A stretch of DNA of 64,000 nucleotides, from positions 59,966-123,965 of the forward strand of contig NZ_LNYE01000029.1 of the NCBI RefSeq assembly GCF_001467695.1, in the 5' to 3' direction. A program made the translations under genes and the position numbers. Positions 1 to 8,896 of this stretch are shown here, in pieces (within the stretch, counting starts at the first letter, position 1; each line of letters opens with the position of its first letter). The stretch is from Legionella gratiana (GTDB taxonomy: Bacteria > Pseudomonadota > Gammaproteobacteria > Legionellales > Legionellaceae). The notes under the pieces are model-generated. The model did no database searches, was not told where the DNA came from, and saw nothing but the letters and a program-made list of their open reading frames with translations.

Positions 1-1492
1 TTTTGTCATTAGCTACACGATAGGTAACTTTTTTGCAGAATTGATTACTCTCGCCAAATTCTTCACGCACAACCTGGATTATGTCGTCGGCATGGCTGTC
101 GGTTTTGGCGAAAACTAGAGTCTTCGGTACTTCCTTGCGACCAGGAAAAATAGAAGGTAAAGCATCTTTAAAGGTACGGATTACGGTGCGTATCTGGTCA
201 GGATTGACGATGTTCCGGTCTAGTTGTTTACTTGTGTAGGCTTCATCTTCATCCTGGGTTTCCCAACGTTTACGACGGGTGGTGCGTTCGCGTTTTTCCA
301 CCTGTTGTTTGGCGGTAATTTTTCCACCTTGTTTGGTTTTCTCAGTTTCAATTACAAAGATCTCATTACCGACGTTAACACCATCAGCTACTGCTTTTTC
401 ATGGTCATACTCGCTGACTACATTCTTACGGAAGAAGCCGTAGGTTCGATTATCGGGTGTTGCGGTCAAGCCTACTAGATAAGCGTCAAAGTATTCCAGT
501 ACCTGTCGCCATAAGTTGTAGATAGATCGGTGACATTCATCGATAATGATGACATCGAAAAACTCAGGTGGAATTTTTCGATTATAAACGACTGGTAAGG
601 GCTCTTTCGGGCGGATGTATTGTTCCGCCGGGTTTTCTTCTTCCAAAGCTTCATCAAGCGGTTCATCTTTCAGAATGGAATACATGCGCTGGATTGTACT
701 GATGCACACCTGGGCATCTTTGGCTATGTATTGGTTTTTCAGTCGTTGCACTGTATAGAGCTCTGTGAACTTGCGGTTATCGTCATTGGGGACAAAACTC
801 ATGAACTCCTGCTCTGCCTGTTCCCCCAGGTTTTTGGTATCTACCAGAAACAGGATGCGATTAGCACTCACAGGTTCTTTTAGCAAACGATAGCTTGCAG
901 TGATGGCAGTAAAAGTTTTGCCAGATCCAGTGGCCATTTGCACTAATGCGCGAGGTTTGTCTTGCTTTAGCGAAGCCTCTAAATTAGTGATTGCTGTAAT
1001 TTGGCAATCGCGTAGGCCATCGGTTTTCAATGGAGGGAAATCTTGTAGGCGACCACGCAGGCTTTTGCTCTCACGCATCCATTTAGATAATGTTTCAGGG
1101 CAGTGAAAATTAAACACTTCACGTGAACGAGGATTCGGGTCTAAGTTATCGGTAAAACGTGTGATTACCCCAGTGCTTTCATATATAAAGCGCAATGGCT
1201 GGTTGTTGTTGACCCACTTTAGTTTCGCATTTGCATAATTAGAGGATTGCTCTTCAACGGTAGTTATTTTTTCGCCCCAATACTCTGGCTTGGCTTCAAT
1301 GATACCTACTGCCTTTTTGTCCACAAACAGCACATAATCAGCAGGGCCAACATCCGTTTGATATTCACGCACAGCCACGCCTAGTGTGGCAGAAAAGTCG
1401 ATCTTCTTCTTATCCTGTACAGCCCAACCTGCTTTTTTAAGGAGGGTATCTATTTCATCTCGGGCTATTTGTTCCGGATTCTGGTTGACCAT
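1..1492 (-). CDS. hsdR: Type I restriction enzyme R subunit (partial, N-terminal ~497 residues)
   Basis: This is the N-terminal part of the ATP-dependent translocase/endonuclease subunit of a type I restriction-modification system; it runs off the left edge. The open frame from the ATG at 1492 shows a PD-(D/E)xK nuclease signature (Asp52, then Glu66-Ala-Lys68), a Walker A box ATGSGKT at about residues 187-193 and a DECH Walker B box at about 318-321, which is the EcoEI-like HsdR order of domains. A good ribosome site (AGGAAG) precedes the start. No HsdM or HsdS is seen to the right, so they would have to lie beyond position 1. A small helix-turn-helix gene sits immediately upstream. Confidence 0.9.
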   Translation of the reverse strand, partial: MVNQNPEQIARDEIDTLLKKAGWAVQDKKKIDFSATLGVAVREYQTDVGPADYVLFVDKKAVGIIEAKPEYWGEKITTVEEQSSNYANAKLKWVNNNQPLRFIYESTGVITRFTDNLDPNPRSREVFNFHCPETLSKWMRESKSLRGRLQDFPPLKTDGLRDCQITAITNLEASLKQDKPRALVQMATGSGKTFTAITASYRLLKEPVSANRILFLVDTKNLGEQAEQEFMSFVPNDDNRKFTELYTVQRLKNQYIAKDAQVCISTIQRMYSILKDEPLDEALEEENPAEQYIRPKEPLPVVYNRKIPPEFFDVIIIDECHRSIYNLWRQVLEYFDAYLVGLTATPDNRTYGFFRKNVVSEYDHEKAVADGVNVGNEIFVIETEKTKQGGKITAKQQVEKRERTTRRKRWETQDEDEAYTSKQLDRNIVNPDQIRTVIRTFKDALPSIFPGRKEVPKTLVFAKTDSHADDIIQVVREEFGESNQFCKKVTYRVANDK

Positions 1493-1522: not shown

Positions 1523-1717
1523 TTAATTATTATTCATTTCAGTTTGCTGCATGCTTCCAGCTTCGATCCAATCATCAACTTGAGAAACTTTAAACTTCCA
1601 AAGCCGCCCAATTTTATGTGCAGGCATGCCTCTCTCATTAATCCATTTGTAGACAGTATCTCTTTTAACCCCGAGGTATTCGCCAATTTCATCAACCGAT
1701 AACCACCTATCATTCAT
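1523..1717 (-). CDS. Small helix-turn-helix (excisionase/AlpA-type) DNA-binding protein
   Basis: A 64-residue protein of the excisionase-family helix-turn-helix class. The N-terminal part reads WLSVDEIGEYLGV, followed by the recognition helix region RDTVYKWINERG and a WKFKVSQVDDWI tail, which is the classic layout (HTH, then a conserved Trp/Phe-Lys strand, then a D-x-W helix). I start it at the internal ATG at 1717 because the family begins just before the WLS motif; an in-frame ATG at 1756 would add 13 unlikely residues. It lies 30 bp upstream of hsdR on the same strand, so it is probably cotranscribed and may regulate the restriction operon or act in island mobility. Confidence 0.75.
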   Translation of the reverse strand: MNDRWLSVDEIGEYLGVKRDTVYKWINERGMPAHKIGRLWKFKVSQVDDWIEAGSMQQTEMNNN

Positions 1718-1954
1718 TGCTTTTCTCTTATGATTATTTTTGCAATATAAAAACAAGTATAGCCAATGAAAACCAGATTACATTAGGCTAAAAAGGTTTA
1801 AAACCGGCCTATGCTAATGAATTTATTTTGAATAATCAATTTACTGGTCATGTTATGATCATAGTGTACCAATCTTGATTTATTTGATGGATGGATTCGT
1901 TCTTTAAGTTATCTAAAAACCATAGAACAGATCTAGTTTTACAGAAATAAAGTT

Positions 1955-2197
1955 CTAATGCCCAATTAGCATGGTGAAATAAAGAAATAGGTTGTGTGCC
2001 TTCGAAGGACCTAAGAACTCTTTTCCAGTCAATACTTGGCTGATCACGAGTGGGCTGGCTTCAAGTATTTGAGCTAGTTCTCTACAGTTCAATTCACTGT
2101 AAGACAGAATAAAATCAATCAAATATTTCTGAGAGTCTTTTTTTAATTGAAACTTAACATCAATAACAGGCTCTAAAACCTCGATAAAACATTCCAT
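1955..2197 (-). CDS. Small putative helix-turn-helix protein, function unknown
   Basis: An 80-residue protein that I cannot name. The middle (residues ~37-60, CRELAQILEASPLVISQVLTG) has the spacing of an XRE-like helix-turn-helix, with a C-terminal stretch rich in aromatic residues. The start ATG at 2197 has a GAGGT ribosome site about 7 bases upstream, which supports it as a real gene. It sits alone between the restriction genes and the peptide transporter inside the island. A regulator role is an inference from the helix-turn-helix only. Confidence 0.5.
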   Translation of the reverse strand: MECFIEVLEPVIDVKFQLKKDSQKYLIDFILSYSELNCRELAQILEASPLVISQVLTGKEFLGPSKAHNLFLYFTMLIGH

Positions 2198-2358: not shown

Positions 2359-3840
2359 TTACGCAGCTGTTATTGCCTCTAATAACTTCGAATCTGTTTT
2401 CTGTTCAATAACAGGATTAATTCTTTTGGCGATCAAGTAAAGGAAAAGCGCGCCCAATAGTGCCCACATACCCAGCTGGTTAAACACATGCAGGTAATCG
2501 ACATTGGATAGCAATGGATTCGTGGACTCACCTTGGGTCATAGCATTGGAAAAGTAATGTGATAAAGATGCTGATACACCTGATACCATCATCCAGGTGC
2601 CCATGAACACGCCTTGTAATTGTGGTGGGGAAATTCTGCCGATCATGGCGTAGCCTACGGGTCCTATCAGTAACTCCGCAATTGCTTGCGTGATAAAATG
2701 AAGCATCACCCAATAAACACTAGTATATCCATCCATATTGGCAGAGAGAATACCGCCGGATAACAAGAAGAAAGAACCTGCAAGTATCAGAAAGGCCCAG
2801 ATAAATTGTTTTGTTACTGATACATTGTATCCTTTTACATGTAGTCGTGTTATCACTATTGATAATAACGGAGCGCCTATAATTATCACAATGGCATTGA
2901 TATTCAAAATCCATTGAGTTGCCATTTCATAATGGAACAGGTGTTTGTCGACATTATTTTTAATGAATAGGGTTACACCCATTGGGCCTGTGAAGTAGAT
3001 CATCCAGAATAGGATTGATGTTACTGTTAGGATTAGAAAAGTCATAATTTTTTGCTTATCTAAAGTCGATTTTTGTTGGTAGCCAAGGTACAGAATTACA
3101 AAAAACATAATAATGCTGAGGCCTACTACAACCCCATTACTGAGCTGTGCTTTTTGAAAACAAAGCAAAGTGAATGGGATAATTGATAATATAATTCCCC
3201 AACCAATAGTTTTTTTGTAATTCAGTGAAGCTTTACTTTTAACTTTGAGTAAGGGAGTATCGCGATCATTCAGGTTTGACCAATAGCTACACATAAGGAA
3301 AAGCGTAATTAGGTTTGGAATTATGCTGGCATAGAGCAGAGTTTGATACTGATTGGAGTAATCAAAAAAACCGCTGATAATGTAGCCAGCGCAAAAGCCG
3401 ACGTTCATGCTGGAATAGCTCAAGAAAAAGGCTTTATCTCTGCGGTTATCATCCGATGCAAAGCGTTGTGTCAGTATGCTGTTGTATGCGGTAGTATTTA
3501 AGCCACATCCAACAAGAAATAAACTCAGCCCAAGATAAAGCAGCGACTTAACTGATAGTGCCAAAAGTAAAATACCAATGGTTTGTATGGCTGTGGTAAT
3601 TAAAAACAAGGATCGGTTACTTAAAAATCGTCCACCAACCACACCACCGAGTAAATGTAGAACATAGTTAAATGCTAGAAATAACCCAACAATGCTGTTT
3701 GAAAAGGTATTAGACAATCCTAATTGTTTAGTGAGAAACAGAGACAATGAGGAATATAGAATCGCATAGGAAAAGGTTGAAAAAGCCTGTATTAAATACA
3801 GGGGCATGATTCCTTTTGGCATTTTTTCTGATAACAACAT
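2359..3840 (-). CDS. POT/PTR-family proton-dependent oligopeptide transporter
   Basis: A 493-residue polytopic inner-membrane protein of the major facilitator superfamily, best matching the proton-dependent oligopeptide transporter (POT) family that imports di- and tripeptides. It has about 12-14 hydrophobic segments, an early SLSLFLTKQLGLS stretch followed by FNYVLHLLGGVVGGRF (POT signature region after helix 2), and the C-terminal GPVGYAMIGRISPPQLQG motif typical of these transporters. Length fits the family. It is divergently transcribed from the unknown gene at 3943. Its presence near a candidate modified-peptide locus is suggestive, but POT transporters usually serve nutrition and no link is shown. 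Confidence 0.85.
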   Translation of the reverse strand: MLLSEKMPKGIMPLYLIQAFSTFSYAILYSSLSLFLTKQLGLSNTFSNSIVGLFLAFNYVLHLLGGVVGGRFLSNRSLFLITTAIQTIGILLLALSVKSLLYLGLSLFLVGCGLNTTAYNSILTQRFASDDNRRDKAFFLSYSSMNVGFCAGYIISGFFDYSNQYQTLLYASIIPNLITLFLMCSYWSNLNDRDTPLLKVKSKASLNYKKTIGWGIILSIIPFTLLCFQKAQLSNGVVVGLSIIMFFVILYLGYQQKSTLDKQKIMTFLILTVTSILFWMIYFTGPMGVTLFIKNNVDKHLFHYEMATQWILNINAIVIIIGAPLLSIVITRLHVKGYNVSVTKQFIWAFLILAGSFFLLSGGILSANMDGYTSVYWVMLHFITQAIAELLIGPVGYAMIGRISPPQLQGVFMGTWMMVSGVSASLSHYFSNAMTQGESTNPLLSNVDYLHVFNQLGMWALLGALFLYLIAKRINPVIEQKTDSKLLEAITAA

Positions 3841-3942: not shown

Positions 3943-5283
3943 ATGTTTAATTGCTATATGGTGCTTAGGGAAATGAACAATATTACTAAAGTTTCATGGG
4001 ATGAAATCAAACATAAGGTAAAACCAGTCAATGAATCGATATATCGTGTCATTGAAGAAATTAAACCTGGCAAAAAAATACCATTCTTTGTAGCTCGTTA
4101 TAAATTTGGTGAGCATTTTGGTATTAAAAATCATGCCTATCTGCCAACCAGTAGCGGCCAAATGGAAAAGATTGACAGCAAGCACACAGATAATGAGTTA
4201 TTCAATCATCTTGGCTATGGTAAAAATAGTCTGCCTTTGGGCTTAATACTGGATAAATTTTGTGAGTGGCATTATTTTGGAGAAGATGAGCGCATCTTTC
4301 CAGACTGTGTCCAGGGACCTGGTGCAATTTTTAATATGCAGGTTATTTTTGATGAAGATCAGACTGTAGATAACAATGTGCTGTCTGTTTCTTCTGGCGC
4401 GCTTTCATCCTTTTTATTGCCGAATATCGGTTGCAAAAGAAAACATGCTAGAGTCCAGAAATATTTTAATGTTACTGTTCCGGCTCCCAAATCACCTTAT
4501 GAACATTATCAGGTATTCAAAGAGATATTGAAGGATAAAAATACTAACGATAATTGGCATAGTGAGATTCTTTATTTTTCTGAGCAGTTTATCAATGAAG
4601 TCAAACATAATGATAAATGGCTTAAGCTGAAACTATATTTCTCGGAGTCGTTAAGGAAAAAGCTGACGCAAAATACTTATGATGCTTCCTGTAACGATTT
4701 ATTTCTCAGTGCCAAAAGTATTAATCGTTTCAGACCTACGCCATTCATCATGGATACAGCAAAATACATTTTTAATATTTGCATGGGCTCAGGTATTGGT
4801 GTGAAGCCAGCAATTGATGAGCAATACTTCCCCGTTAAAACGATTCAGAAAATTTATAATGAATGTTATGACTTAGAATACACAGCGACCGTAATGGTGC
4901 CGTCAACCTTAAATGGTCAGTCTGATAGCGTTTATTATCCCTTACAGTGCCCCTTTGCGAAGATTAATACATTTAAAACCAATCAAAGCAACAGCGCTTA
5001 TAGTGAACTGGAAATGCTAAAAAATGTGTTGTTGGCTTATCAGTCGGAATTTACTGCCGATAATAGTTCTGCGTTTGGAAGTCCACTTTACCATGTGAGT
5101 AAAAAAACAGAATTTTCTTTTTACCATTATAAATCTTCTAATAATCACAGTATTCTATGCTCTGAAGGTTTAAGGGATACAGATAACCGATTTGTTTTTT
5201 CTTATTGTACTGACTCAGTACAATTTGCCAGTGACGCTAAGTTATTTAGAGGTTGTGTAAGATTAAGCAAGAATGGTTTATAA
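3943..5283 (+). CDS. Unknown protein, 446 residues
   Basis: I do not recognise this protein. It is soluble-looking, mixed charged/aromatic, with no signal peptide, membrane helix or familiar motif; there are several Cys residues (for example CVQGPG near residue 126 and CNDLF near 245) but no clear metal-binding pattern. I start it at the ATG at 3943, preceded by AAGGA 6 bases upstream; a TTG at 3940 and ATGs at 3958 and 3973 are alternatives with worse ribosome sites. It is divergent from the POT transporter and followed, convergently, by the HEPN-like gene. Codon use looks like its neighbours. Function unknown. Confidence 0.65.
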   Translation: MFNCYMVLREMNNITKVSWDEIKHKVKPVNESIYRVIEEIKPGKKIPFFVARYKFGEHFGIKNHAYLPTSSGQMEKIDSKHTDNELFNHLGYGKNSLPLGLILDKFCEWHYFGEDERIFPDCVQGPGAIFNMQVIFDEDQTVDNNVLSVSSGALSSFLLPNIGCKRKHARVQKYFNVTVPAPKSPYEHYQVFKEILKDKNTNDNWHSEILYFSEQFINEVKHNDKWLKLKLYFSESLRKKLTQNTYDASCNDLFLSAKSINRFRPTPFIMDTAKYIFNICMGSGIGVKPAIDEQYFPVKTIQKIYNECYDLEYTATVMVPSTLNGQSDSVYYPLQCPFAKINTFKTNQSNSAYSELEMLKNVLLAYQSEFTADNSSAFGSPLYHVSKKTEFSFYHYKSSNNHSILCSEGLRDTDNRFVFSYCTDSVQFASDAKLFRGCVRLSKNGL

Positions 5284-5300
5284 AATAGTTAATTAATTAG

Positions 5301-6131
5301 TTAGTGTTTATCGATATTAGTAAAATATTTTTTGACATGTGCTAAAAAACTGATTAAAAGTTTATAAATTTTATTCTGAGAGAGAGGAATTGTTATTGTT
5401 TGATTAGGATATTTAACAATTTCCATGTATTGTTTGACTCTTTTGAAATTATGCTCATTTATATTGCTACCTGAGCCCAATAACTCTAAAAAGTTAGCAC
5501 TTACATTTGAAATTTGCTCGAGAGCTTTCAAAGCATCTTTTTTTTGATTATGAGTTTTTGTTGACCAGCGATGAAAATAATTAGTTCTTAACCTATGTAC
5601 GTCAATTAAATTTTTTCTTTCAGTGTCTGAGATTATTTTTGCATGTTGAAGCCAGCGAATTCGTAAACTTTGGTCTAGGTTGTTTGCAATGTTAATTAAT
5701 TTTGCATCTCCTCTACTTCTAATTTTTATCTGATCCTTTGATTGCATGTTACCAATATTATTTATTAATTCATCACTGCTAGTAATGCATAGATAATTTG
5801 CTAACATTTCTCCATGCAGTGCACAAAGCTCAATACACGCAAGGTATTCCCCAAACGAAAAAGTTTTCTTTGCCGAACTTAATGTACTAATTAATTTTGT
5901 ATGGATATTTTCTTGAGTGGTTCCAGCACTTATATTTGTCATTATATCGCAGGCTTCTACATATCTCTCAAGCAAAGCCCTATAAAGTTCTGATGAATCT
6001 AATTCAAAAAAAGCACATATCCACTTTCTTTCATTGCAATATGACTGATTATCTAAATCTAAAAGTGGATTTATATCATTCTCATTTAGATGATAACCAA
6101 GAACATTAAATTTTAATGTAACATTTTGCAT
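5301..6131 (-). CDS. HEPN-like protein with an RxxxxH motif, function unknown
   Basis: A helical protein of about 276 residues. The C-terminal half contains LIDVHRLRTNYFHRW, where Arg and His are four residues apart (R-T-N-Y-F-H); this RxxxxH arrangement inside a helical bundle is the hallmark of HEPN domains, many of which are RNases in toxin, abortive-infection and restriction-associated proteins. The residue after Arg is Thr rather than the common Asn/Asp/His, so activity is uncertain. I take the ATG at 6131; a TTG at 6152 would extend it by seven residues. It is in the island with a type I restriction gene and directly downstream of the methyltransferase gene, both minus strand, separated by about 130 bp. 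Confidence 0.5.
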   Translation of the reverse strand: MQNVTLKFNVLGYHLNENDINPLLDLDNQSYCNERKWICAFFELDSSELYRALLERYVEACDIMTNISAGTTQENIHTKLISTLSSAKKTFSFGEYLACIELCALHGEMLANYLCITSSDELINNIGNMQSKDQIKIRSRGDAKLINIANNLDQSLRIRWLQHAKIISDTERKNLIDVHRLRTNYFHRWSTKTHNQKKDALKALEQISNVSANFLELLGSGSNINEHNFKRVKQYMEIVKYPNQTITIPLSQNKIYKLLISFLAHVKKYFTNIDKH

Positions 6132-6263
6132 GTCAATTCTATCTAGTTGCAAAGATCTAATAATATAATTCTAAATCTCTATATTGGTACATATCAATAA
6201 TAGTCTATATGGTGGATATCTTAATTATTCAGTATTCAATAAAGAAGAGCATAATATTTAGCT

Positions 6264-7034
6264 TTAAACTAAATCTTCAACTTTCAATTCAAGTAACTTT
6301 AAATATTTGCTACTGATTTCTGTTTTTCCTGAAGGTGGAACATAAACAGTTGTTATCGGGTTAATAAGGGATTTATCGAGATATGAAAGCGTGATCCATT
6401 CTATTCTTGGTTGCTGAGTGGGTAAGGAAGGTGCTTCATATAAACATATGGTATATTCCTTTGAAAAATATTCGCACAAGTAATCTTTTAAAATTGAGAG
6501 CTTATTAGATTTCTTTCCGTCTGTTCTGCCGAAGTTTGCTACTTGCCAAAGAATCAAGTGTGAATGAATATCAATATGACGTTCAAATAATACCAGTTCG
6601 GTAGCTTCGATTGAAAAGCATCCATGATTACCAGGGTCAATTTTAAGATCACTAAAAAGACAATCTTGAGCAGAAACAGCAGGTAATATGATAGCGTCAC
6701 CGCCATTTTTTTTGATCTGTATTACGGCATTTAGCGCCGAATCTGCAAAAACGGCAGGATGGCCGTAAAAAACCACGCATAAAATTGAAACCTTCTTATA
6801 TTCTTCAATGATATGATTTGTTAGTAACTGATATGCTTCAATCCGTTTTTCACTGCTAAAGTAGATAGAATCCAACGATTCAGAATTTTTTGCTTCTCGT
6901 TGAATCCATTGTTTTAGATTATCTTCATTAACGAGGTAGAGTACCTTATCAGCACTTTGAATAACCTGTTTAGTTTCTTCGGTCAGATGGGAAATCGATT
7001 TTATTCCTGACCCTACTACTATGAGCTTATTCAT
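6264..7034 (-). CDS. Borosin-type (OphMA-like) peptide backbone N-methyltransferase, tetrapyrrole-methylase fold
   Basis: A 256-residue SAM-dependent methyltransferase of the tetrapyrrole methylase fold. It follows the fungal omphalotin methyltransferase domain closely: LIVVGSGIKSISHLT at the N-terminus (family: VGTGIxSxxxxT), ADKVLYLV, then VVFYGHPAVFADSA, LPAVSAQDCLFSDL, IDPGNHGC, IHSHLILWQV and a late TTVYVPPSG. Enzymes with this pattern methylate backbone amides of a ribosomal peptide (borosins). The protein stops after the methyltransferase domain and lacks a fused core peptide, as in split borosin systems. Its ATG overlaps the stop region of the upstream 61-codon gene by 8 bases, implying translational coupling. 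Substrate identity is inference. Confidence 0.8.
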   Translation of the reverse strand: MNKLIVVGSGIKSISHLTEETKQVIQSADKVLYLVNEDNLKQWIQREAKNSESLDSIYFSSEKRIEAYQLLTNHIIEEYKKVSILCVVFYGHPAVFADSALNAVIQIKKNGGDAIILPAVSAQDCLFSDLKIDPGNHGCFSIEATELVLFERHIDIHSHLILWQVANFGRTDGKKSNKLSILKDYLCEYFSKEYTICLYEAPSLPTQQPRIEWITLSYLDKSLINPITTVYVPPSGKTEISSKYLKLLELKVEDLV

Positions 7035-7212
7035 TAACTTGTTTTATATTTACTATCTTATTGCTATCAGGCTGATGGTGTCTTTGTACAGAAACTATTG
7101 TATTAGAATTAGTCTTCCTCTGATTGTTTTGATTTGTGTCTAACAATAAATCTTTGTGGCTGATCAAATACTCATTTCCTACTGCGTGTTCTAGTTTTTC
7201 CAGTAAACTCAT
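7027..7212 (-). CDS. 61-residue peptide, candidate precursor substrate of the borosin-type methyltransferase
   Basis: A small gene with a strong ribosome site (AAGGTGA about 7 bases before ATG 7212), overlapping the methyltransferase start by 8 bases (ATGAATAA). Residues 1-25 look helical and leader-like (MSLLEKLEHAV, then SHKDLLLD); the remainder is rich in Asn and Gln and holds two imperfect units, SNTIVSVQ at 36-43 and SNKIVNIK at 50-57, fourteen residues apart. That layout would fit a leader followed by a repeated core. I do not see a convincing copy of the known borosin-binding helical domain, so precursor status rests on size, coupling and the repeat. Confidence 0.6.
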   Translation of the reverse strand: MSLLEKLEHAVGNEYLISHKDLLLDTNQNNQRKTNSNTIVSVQRHHQPDSNKIVNIKQVNE

Positions 7213-7323
7213 TTGATGTCACCTTACCTATATTAAATTTTGATAAACATTGTACAAATAAAATTCTTATAGGTATAGCCTTAAAAAACATTTGCAGTGA
7301 AGTGCTCATTATGCTCTAATAAG

Positions 7324-7374: not shown

Positions 7375-7752
7375 ATGAGCAATATTCATCTAATCCCCCG
7401 ATTAATTCGTTTAAGAGATGCCCCTACCTATGTAGGTATGGATCGCCATCGATTTAATAAAGATGTAAGGCCAAATCTGGTTGAGATTCCCATGGGAACT
7501 CAGGGTATTGCTTTTGATCGACTTGATTTAGATGCCTGGGTAGACGATTATATACAGTGTAGTGGTCGTCCCGCGGCAGTTGAACGTAGGAGTTTGGAGT
7601 TATGGGACGAAAAAGAACGCCAGGGCTGCAAAAGCGTGGCAGCGTCTGGTGTATTGACAAAAAGGTCTTCGGACGACGACTTTGCGAAAGCACTGGTACT
7701 GACAACCTCGAAGAGGCGGAAAAGTATCTCGCACGGCGTCTCGAAGAGATAA
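7375..7752 (+). CDS. Putative excisionase-like/regulatory protein overlapping the integrase
   Basis: A 125-residue protein whose first ~60 residues (PRLIRLRDAPTYVGMDRHRFN, then GIAFDRLDLDAWVDDYI) have the AlpA/excisionase helix-turn-helix plan: a short HTH, a strand, and a D-x-W helix. The last 50 residues overlap the integrase gene by 151 bp in another frame and are Ser/Lys/Arg-rich without recognisable structure. A ribosome site (AGGAG, about 14 bases upstream) is present. Such small proteins commonly precede tyrosine integrases on islands and steer excision or regulate them. The long overlap suggests translational coupling. Confidence 0.65.
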   Translation: MSNIHLIPRLIRLRDAPTYVGMDRHRFNKDVRPNLVEIPMGTQGIAFDRLDLDAWVDDYIQCSGRPAAVERRSLELWDEKERQGCKSVAASGVLTKRSSDDDFAKALVLTTSKRRKSISHGVSKR

Positions 7753-8729
7753 GACTTGCAACAGTCTACGGTGTTCGCCCCAAAAGAACATTCAAAGAAG
7801 CCGCTACTAAATTTCTGATGGAAAACCAACACAAACGCAGTATCAGTGATGATGCTGGTCGTTTGCGAGAGGTGGTTAAGTACATCGGGGATTTGCCTAT
7901 TGAAGCAATTCATATCGGTAGTTTGCAATCCTTTATTGAAGGTCGAAGAAAGGATGAAGTGAGCACGAGAACTATCAATCATGGTTTGATGATTGTTCGG
8001 CGTATATTAAATTTAGCTGCTAGTGAATGGATGGATGAATTCGGTTTAACCTGGTTAAACTCAGCGCCAAAGATAAAACTTTTACCTGAGCCAGATTTAA
8101 GAAAACCTTATCCATTAAGTTGGGATGAACAGCACAAGCTGTTTCAGCAGTTACCTGAACATCTGAAAAATATGGCTTTGTTTGCCGTAAATACAGGGTG
8201 TCGAGATCGTGAAATATGTGAATTGCGCTGGGATTGGGAAATACAAATTCCAGAATTGCCACACATCATCGTTTTTATTGTACCAGGTGAACTGGTCAAA
8301 AACGGAGAGGAACGGCTGATTGTTTGTAACGAAACAGTTCGGGAAGTGATAGAAGGGGAGAGAGGTAAACATCCTACTCATGTCTTTAGTTTTAAAGGCC
8401 GACCATTAAGTCGTATGTTATCGACTGGTTGGCGACAGGCTAGAGAAAAGGCGAAATTGCCTGAAGTAAGAGTGCATGATTTAAAGCATACCTTTGGCAG
8501 ACGATTGAGAGCTGCAGGGGTAAGTTTTGAAGACAGGCAAGATTTACTTGGGCATCGTTCAGGTAGGATTACAACTCACTATTCCTCAGCTGAGTTGCAA
8601 AGTTTATATCAAGCTGCGAATAAGATTTGTGAGAATCGTAAAAGTGGAGTGATATTAACGTTATTGCGAAACCCAAAGAGTAGACCTGCCAGTCAAAATA
8701 CTCTAAGGGAAAGTCACGTAAGTTTGTAA
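7602..8729 (+). CDS. Tyrosine recombinase / island integrase
   Basis: A 375-residue site-specific recombinase. Residues ~60-150 form the SAM-like core-binding domain; the catalytic domain shows Arg201 in TGCRDREICELRW, the H-x-x-x-H stretch VHDLKHTFGRRL (292-302), LGHRSG at 316-321 and the nucleophile Tyr327 in THYSS. The usual Arg of HDLRHT is Lys here (HDLK), which I believe recurs in this integrase branch. It ends 90 bp from the 3' end of a tRNA gene and faces it, the normal position of an integrase at the edge of a tRNA-integrated island. Confidence 0.9.
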   Translation: MGRKRTPGLQKRGSVWCIDKKVFGRRLCESTGTDNLEEAEKYLARRLEEIRLATVYGVRPKRTFKEAATKFLMENQHKRSISDDAGRLREVVKYIGDLPIEAIHIGSLQSFIEGRRKDEVSTRTINHGLMIVRRILNLAASEWMDEFGLTWLNSAPKIKLLPEPDLRKPYPLSWDEQHKLFQQLPEHLKNMALFAVNTGCRDREICELRWDWEIQIPELPHIIVFIVPGELVKNGEERLIVCNETVREVIEGERGKHPTHVFSFKGRPLSRMLSTGWRQAREKAKLPEVRVHDLKHTFGRRLRAAGVSFEDRQDLLGHRSGRITTHYSSAELQSLYQAANKICENRKSGVILTLLRNPKSRPASQNTLRESHVSL

Positions 8730-8761: not shown

Positions 8762-8819
8762 AGGACTTTTGTGTTAAAACAGGTAATCAACGTAAGTTAT
8801 TGATTTTAAAGGTCTAAAT

Positions 8820-8896
8820 TGGTGGGCCCACTAGGACTTGAACCTAGGACCAACGGATTATGAGTCCGCTGCTCTGACCAACTGAGCTATGGGCCC
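8820..8896 (-). tRNA. tRNA with anticodon CAU (tRNA-Ile2 or tRNA-Met), CCA encoded
   Basis: A complete cloverleaf reads on the minus strand from 8896: acceptor GGGCCCA pairs with TGGGCCC, the D-arm is GCTC..GAGC, the anticodon arm is CGGACTCATAATCCG with anticodon CAT, the T-arm is CCTAGGTTCAAGTCCTAGG, and CCA is encoded (8822-8820). A CAU anticodon is read as elongator Met or, if modified to lysidine by TilS, as Ile for AUA; the overall body (ACTCATAATC, G1-C72 rich stem) leans toward Ile2 but does not settle it. Its 3' end faces the integrase, so it is the probable attachment site. Confidence 0.95.

Follow-up and report, generated by a model that had tools for sequence, protein, structure and literature searches.

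A putative split-borosin cluster with a recurrent partner protein on a mobile element of Legionella gratiana

What is made by a methyltransferase gene that overlaps a very small gene on a mobile island of Legionella gratiana? We addressed this question in a 64,000-nucleotide stretch of this organism (NCBI RefSeq assembly GCF_001467695.1, contig NZ_LNYE01000029.1, positions 59,966 to 123,965 of the forward strand), called the window throughout. A sequence-only reading of the window had proposed a borosin-type enzyme, here M, paired with a separate small partner gene, here A. The most likely system, at a probability of roughly 0.8, is a split-borosin cluster made up of A, M, a partner protein X, a transporter T and a small protein R, carried on an integrative conjugative element. 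Handles beginning with L denote loci and those beginning with G genomes used for comparison.

The methyltransferase and the small gene upstream of it

The features of the pair are:
6264-7034, minus strand: M, borosin-family peptide alpha-N-methyltransferase, 256 residues (profile and PDB sequence matches)
7027-7212, minus strand: A, 61-residue putative precursor peptide with a leader of about 34 residues and a C-terminal core (position, dN/dS, alignment)
7219-7225, minus strand: ribosome-binding site of A, AAGGTGA (sequence)
7087-7104, minus strand: core motif 1, NTIVSV, residues 37-42 of A (aligned with 24 other precursors; putative role)
7045-7062, minus strand: core motif 2, NKIVNI, residues 51-56 of A (alignment; putative role)

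We compared M with family and structure databases. Pfam returned the TP_methylase superfamily alone (E 1.6e-10), and the top NCBIfam match, YabN, scored 76 bits, far below its cut-off of 525. The best matches among PDB sequences were the fused fungal borosins dbOphMA (8e-43) and OphMA (8e-40), followed by SonM (1.6e-37), to which M is homologous over its whole length, and MroMA (5e-33); the only other two matches, at E 0.03 and 0.10, were weak and to unrelated proteins. A profile built from 28 relatives of M retrieved 25 distinct PDB sequences at E <= 1e-3, and all 25 were borosin enzymes (OphMA, dbOphMA, SonM entries and MroMA). An ordinary tetrapyrrole or rRNA methylase, which the sequence-only reading had named as the match that would overturn its proposal, is ruled out by these Pfam, NCBIfam, PDB-sequence and profile results. 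The aligned catalytic residues are also kept: Y58, R64, Y68 and Y90 of M correspond to SonM Y58, R67, Y71 and Y93 and are invariant in 28 of 28 aligned rows, a correspondence drawn by aligning the SonM-like protein of L153 with SonM and using the residues studied in PMC8429565. Homology and active-site residues make it well supported that M is a borosin-family alpha-N-methyltransferase. In OphMA and dbOphMA the core lies on the enzyme's own C-terminus, whereas M stops after the methylase domain.

Both genes lie where the sequence-only reading had placed them, overlapping by 8 bases, and its claims of a ribosome site for the small gene and of an enzyme without a fused core proved correct. No ribosome site was seen before the M start, which is consistent with translation of M being coupled to that of A. 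For promoters and terminators, scans did not outperform shuffled sequence (22 found where shuffles averaged 25.3, and 4 where they gave 3.0), and these predictions were set aside. Among 16 close copies, dN/dS was 0.12 for M and 0.31 for A in frame, compared with control values for A of 0.92 and 1.34 in the other two forward frames and 1.02 on the reverse complement. Along A, the ratio was 0.22 for codons 1-20, 0.17 for codons 21-34 and 0.49 for codons 35-61. A is under purifying selection in frame, with a constrained leader and a looser core. An open reading frame (ORF) of 45-100 residues lies upstream of every intact M-family ORF examined from Legionella and its family, ending between 45 bases before and 12 bases after the M start; the survey took the longest ORF at each M start, and two fragments (L035 and L098) were without one. 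The dN/dS values and this conserved position rule out a chance ORF.

A begins with a helix-like leader, MSLLEKLEHAVGNEYL, and ends in a region that varies in copy number among its relatives. In a clade at about 60% identity, the precursors carry one core motif at the extreme C-terminus (QPHANKIVLIK and similar), to which core motif 2 of A corresponds. Tandem core copies occur in the precursors of L051, L065, L091 and others: L051 has two near-identical copies, and L065 has QP-led repeats, three full and one partial. Precursors of another clade carry two SDMSHV-type copies. The genome of the window itself holds a second borosin locus on contig 11 (L034), whose precursor differs and ends in ADMSRVVR, and we also observed a fragment of a third methyltransferase on contig 20 (L035). 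From its position, selection and leader/core anatomy, A looks like the precursor and substrate of M, and the earlier proposal of a borosin-type enzyme with a separate partner gene held up, through homology of M and conservation of A.

The partner protein X and the rest of the cluster

The further genes of the cluster, and the slot between M and X, are:
3973-5283, plus strand (towards M): X, conserved partner protein of an unrecognised family, 436 residues (conserved company of M)
2359-3840, minus strand: T, POT-type oligopeptide:H+ symporter, 493 residues (PF00854 2.9e-19; TIGR00924 170 bits against a cut-off of 130)
1955-2197, minus strand: R, 80-residue protein, helix-turn-helix-like by eye only (relative near M in the window clade)
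5301-6152, minus strand: 283-residue ORF in the variable slot between M and X (relative, among the loci compared, solely in the window and L115)

We surveyed the company of M by blastp over the window and the fetched loci, which gave 73 M hits, and counted neighbours within 7 kb. X was present near 63 of the 73. In the window clade, defined as the 30 loci whose M is at least 55% identical to the window enzyme, X and a POT-type transporter each accompanied M in 28 of 30 loci and a relative of R in 26. The two loci of this clade without X nearby are L036, whose species has X, T and R on a separate contig (L115), and L041, whose genome has X elsewhere. Most other clades have M, then a different MFS transporter and a convergent X (Pfam tested in L142), and this set of four, namely MFS, short ORF, M and X, recurs on a Legionella israelensis plasmid. 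M, an MFS gene and X also occur together in uncultured gammaproteobacteria, for example L142. The slot between M and X is empty elsewhere or holds a GNAT acetyltransferase (Pfam, L049), a transposase by eye (L064) or other genes, and the 283-residue ORF was rejected as a conserved part of the cluster on its distribution. The sequence-only reading had described a two-gene system; the pair stands, while X, the transporter and the spread of the cluster through the genus had been missed.

X of the window matched nothing in Pfam, NCBIfam, PHROGs or PADLOC. Across 35 X members, the best Pfam match was DUF7276 (E 0.0075, three members) and the best NCBIfam match had E 0.044, while an X profile against PDB sequences gave a best E of 0.47. 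R likewise had no family match in Pfam, NCBIfam, PADLOC or PHROGs. PADLOC matched none of the window proteins, leaving a defence role of M or X without support. X of this cluster was found in L. santicrucis (98% identical), L. shakespearei, L. jamestowniensis, L. quateirensis, L. anisa, L. longbeachae, L. bozemanae, Fluoribacter gormanii and uncultured gammaproteobacteria, adjoining M in most of these records. Among 189 relatives, 51 carried X and 41 carried M, with both in 40 of the 41 M genomes; the sole M genome without X (G039) has an M fragment only, and in G054 both are short pieces. A sample of 369 genomes from the class held X in 24 (E <= 1e-3), M in 10 (E <= 1e-20) and both in five, and a phylum-wide sample held X in 1 of 398, the window's own genome (E <= 1e-10). 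X looks lineage-restricted because these class and phylum samples hold so few copies, with one contrary record in a metagenome bin named Myxococcales (L140).

The sequence distances of M and X were correlated (r 0.909 over 68 distinct pairs), with none of 999 permutations as high. The same held among the 24 divergent pairs, in which M is under about 70% identical (r 0.836; 0 of 999).

X also occurs away from M. We took 20 such regions, 19 with a closed X ORF and one (L176) in which X runs off the contig, and saw no M ORF within 3.2 kb of X in any of them. In L160, L161, L162 and L164, X neighbours ATP-grasp, ThiS-like and ThiF-like genes (Pfam tested in L161). It stands beside a YcaO gene in L163, L165 and L169, with TfuA also in L163 (Pfam tested), and beside a class I methyltransferase in L168 and L170 (Pfam tested in L168); L166 and L167 show an MFS gene by eye. 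In the nine regions L171-L179 no enzyme that modifies peptides was evident; by eye, L173 and L174 do have an MFS-like neighbour. The YcaO and ThiF/ThiS clusters have X in common with the borosin loci, and that of L161 a POT-family transporter as well; they show no borosin methyltransferase within 3.2 kb of X, and a different chemistry is expected of them. In an alignment of 55 X rows, which counts one gene twice, G46, E98, G142, W195, P287 and D404 were invariant, and H385, C428 and H178 were kept in 53, 52 and 49 rows. Because its neighbours differ (borosin, YcaO, ATP-grasp/ThiS/ThiF) and these residues are conserved, the comparison suggests that X is an enzyme that serves several kinds of peptide modification.

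Alternatively, X could protect against the peptide, as an immunity or resistance protein, instead of maturing it; its separate, convergent transcription unit and its closeness to the cluster would agree with that. We regard this as unlikely, as X accompanies unrelated peptide-modifying enzymes and some genomes carry several copies, and the invariant E98 and D404 with the nearly invariant H385, C428 and H178 are more catalyst-like than expected of an immunity protein.

Two of the settings of X drew attention in their own right. At L161 5878-8484, and similarly in L160, L162 and L164, X stands with an ATP-grasp protein, an 83-residue ThiS-like protein whose sequence ends in GG and a protein of ThiF/rhodanese type; L161, L162 and L164 also have an MFS/POT transporter upstream. 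This Legionella cluster looks like an undescribed sulfur-dependent pathway for a peptide or metabolite. Ahead of each of the YcaO genes beside X in L163 (5826-8307) and L169 (7433-8718) lies a small ORF that has a ribosome-like site. These ORFs, picked by eye at L169 7433-7603 and L163 8167-8307, are possible candidate precursors; Pfam gave no match for the one in L163.

The mobile setting

The features that define the mobile setting of the cluster are:
7375-7752, plus strand: excisionase-like ORF, 125 residues, divergent from A (phrog_13517, function unknown, and no Pfam match; putative role from position)
7602-8729, plus strand: tyrosine integrase, 375 residues (PF00589 3.6e-17; PHROG integrase)
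8818-8864, no strand: right attachment repeat, 47 bases comprising the 3' part of tRNA-Met (8820-8896) and two further bases (exact copy about 52 kb leftward, outside the window)
2-1492, minus strand: type I restriction gene, HsdR part (the whole R-subunit ORF is only 523 residues, shorter than usual)

Between the two attachment copies lie the Relaxase, T4SS-DNA_transf coupling protein, TrbE and TrbI families, a T2SSE secretion ATPase and CsrA. The same interval holds an OLD-like gene and a type I restriction system into which an AAA_13 gene is inserted. The combination of an integrase, attachment repeats at a tRNA gene, a relaxase and type IV secretion genes identifies, on sequence features, an integrative conjugative element of about 52 kb at tRNA-Met, of which the cluster would be cargo. 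The restriction gene, the integrase and the mobile island reported by the sequence-only reading were all borne out.

In the window clade, an integrase lies within about 1.8 kb upstream of M in 19 of 30 loci, with differing sequences, and an excisionase-like ORF in seven further loci (PHROG tested in L053); L051, L059, L060 and L061 showed neither by that test, L060 having an AlpA-like ORF by eye. Given 424 integrase matches across 45 Legionella genomes (about 165 Mb, or about 2.6 per Mb), some 0.14 of 30 would be expected near M, a rough comparison in which the two counts were made by different methods. A tRNA scan of 31 loci (L036-L066) gave tRNA-Met in 12, tRNA-Pro in four, other tRNAs in three and none in 12. 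At M identities of 74-82%, the integrases often reach 97-99%, suggesting recombination between the cassette and the integration module, or a faster change of M.

This association could mean that the cluster serves the mobile element itself, its peptide signalling between cells or tuning excision or transfer while T imports it and R senses it. The excess of integrases near M, their different sequences and several tRNA sites would suit such a role, as would the general habit of POT transporters of importing small peptides. Cargo often gathers beside integrases, however, and the window-clade loci are not independent, because many of the integrases are nearly identical. Moreover, 30 of the 43 other M rows have no integrase in the fetched stretch, nine of the remaining 13 have it downstream of M, and the L. 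israelensis copy sits among plasmid genes. On balance we consider an accessory role improbable, and retain the reading of the cluster as a peptide-maturation pathway carried as cargo.

The element carries other cargo. L031 13302-18584 encodes HsdM and HsdS with the AAA_13 gene between them (PADLOC PDC-S06; a weaker PrrC match), and L031 7757-13270, in the same element, a pair made up of an AAA ATPase and a calcineurin-like phosphoesterase (SbcCD-like by eye) along with an OLD/GajA-like gene, making for defence-rich cargo. Next to HsdR, at window positions 1523-1756, lies a 77-residue helix-turn-helix protein that falls just short of the NCBIfam cut-off for MAD1 of the MADS defence system (79.6 bits, with 80 required). 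A third, imperfect (96%) copy of the tRNA-Met attachment sequence lies further left (L033 3582-3629), near an integrase-like gene by eye, and perhaps marks a tandem element.

A proposed pathway and what it would mean

The cluster holds the parts of a pathway for a ribosomally synthesized and post-translationally modified peptide (RiPP), namely a leader/core precursor, a modifying enzyme and a transporter, and the methyltransferase and putative precursor are separately encoded, as in split borosins. The type IV split borosin SonM/SonA of Shewanella oneidensis (PMC8429565) likewise pairs a separate methyltransferase (SonM, 263 residues) with a short precursor. The Legionella cluster differs in its NxIVxI core and in being accompanied by X and a POT transporter; its precursor gene lies upstream of the enzyme, whereas that of the SonM-like locus L153 lies downstream. 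SonA has a 53-residue binding domain (BBD), to which A has no match, and the five-helix BBD of type IV precursors was not found in A at the sequence level. By description, the window fits the 'Class 4' borosins presented in PMC11395268, which have a separate enzyme and core peptide and no BBD in the cluster.

That M might be a borosin-fold methyltransferase for another substrate, protein or small molecule, with A as a regulatory or chaperone partner, would agree with the missing SonA binding domain and with a parent superfamily (PF00590) named for small-molecule methylases, but is very unlikely given the peptide-contacting borosin-site residues kept in M, the RiPP-precursor traits of A (leader/core pattern, tandem core copies, constant position) and the peptide symporter family of T.

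Several observations weigh against a split-borosin cluster that includes X. The window precursor did not match SonA, and a profile comparison with one SonA-like precursor gave no match either, while the SonA-like precursor of L153 does match SonA (6e-4). The loop from Y58 to the key arginine of M is three residues shorter than in SonM, so Y58 was assigned across a gap. X is convergent to A and M, not in one operon with them, and is also found away from M. Ten of the 73 M hits have no X nearby (the fragments L035, L098 and L100, the contig ends L087 and L096, and L036, L041, L065, L071 and L074), and five of the 10 M genomes in the class sample have no X. The correlation between M and X partly reflects shared ancestry.

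With these points weighed, we propose the following course for the split-borosin cluster. The helix-like leader would hold A on M, which, using S-adenosylmethionine, would methylate backbone amides in the hydrophobic C-terminal core motifs NTIVSV and NKIVNI. Backbone N-methylation makes peptides stable and membrane-permeable. X would act as a second maturation enzyme on the same peptide, with leader removal, cyclisation or other tailoring as possible reactions. T would transport the peptide, whole or in part, through the membrane, and R may be a regulator. The cluster would travel as cargo of the element inserted in tRNA-Met.

M was matched in 33 of 45 sampled Legionella genomes. Our literature search returned no paper joining 'borosin' and 'Legionella', in line with the earlier statement that no borosin had been described from this genus; priority cannot be claimed, the main split-borosin mining surveys lying outside that search. 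Legionella members may already be catalogued, because one mining study reportedly lists over a thousand bacterial pathways. The novel part of the cluster is X.

According to PMC8429565, no type IV split-borosin pathway had been tied to a final product as of 2021. We put forward tentatively, at somewhat less than even odds, the joint proposal that X defines a new family of enzymes that mature peptides in intracellular and host-associated gammaproteobacteria, working across RiPP classes (borosin methyltransferases, YcaO/TfuA and ATP-grasp/ThiS/ThiF), and that the borosins of Legionella are a new type lacking a BBD, in which leaders are short, NxIVxI cores are repeated and integrative elements account for the spread. 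An amoeba-dwelling genus with M in 33 of 45 sampled genomes, several kinds of precursor, a peptide transporter and a recurrent partner offers a concrete place to seek both a product and the missing maturation step. If X is indeed a maturase shared across RiPP classes, it would provide a new handle for the genome mining of such clusters.
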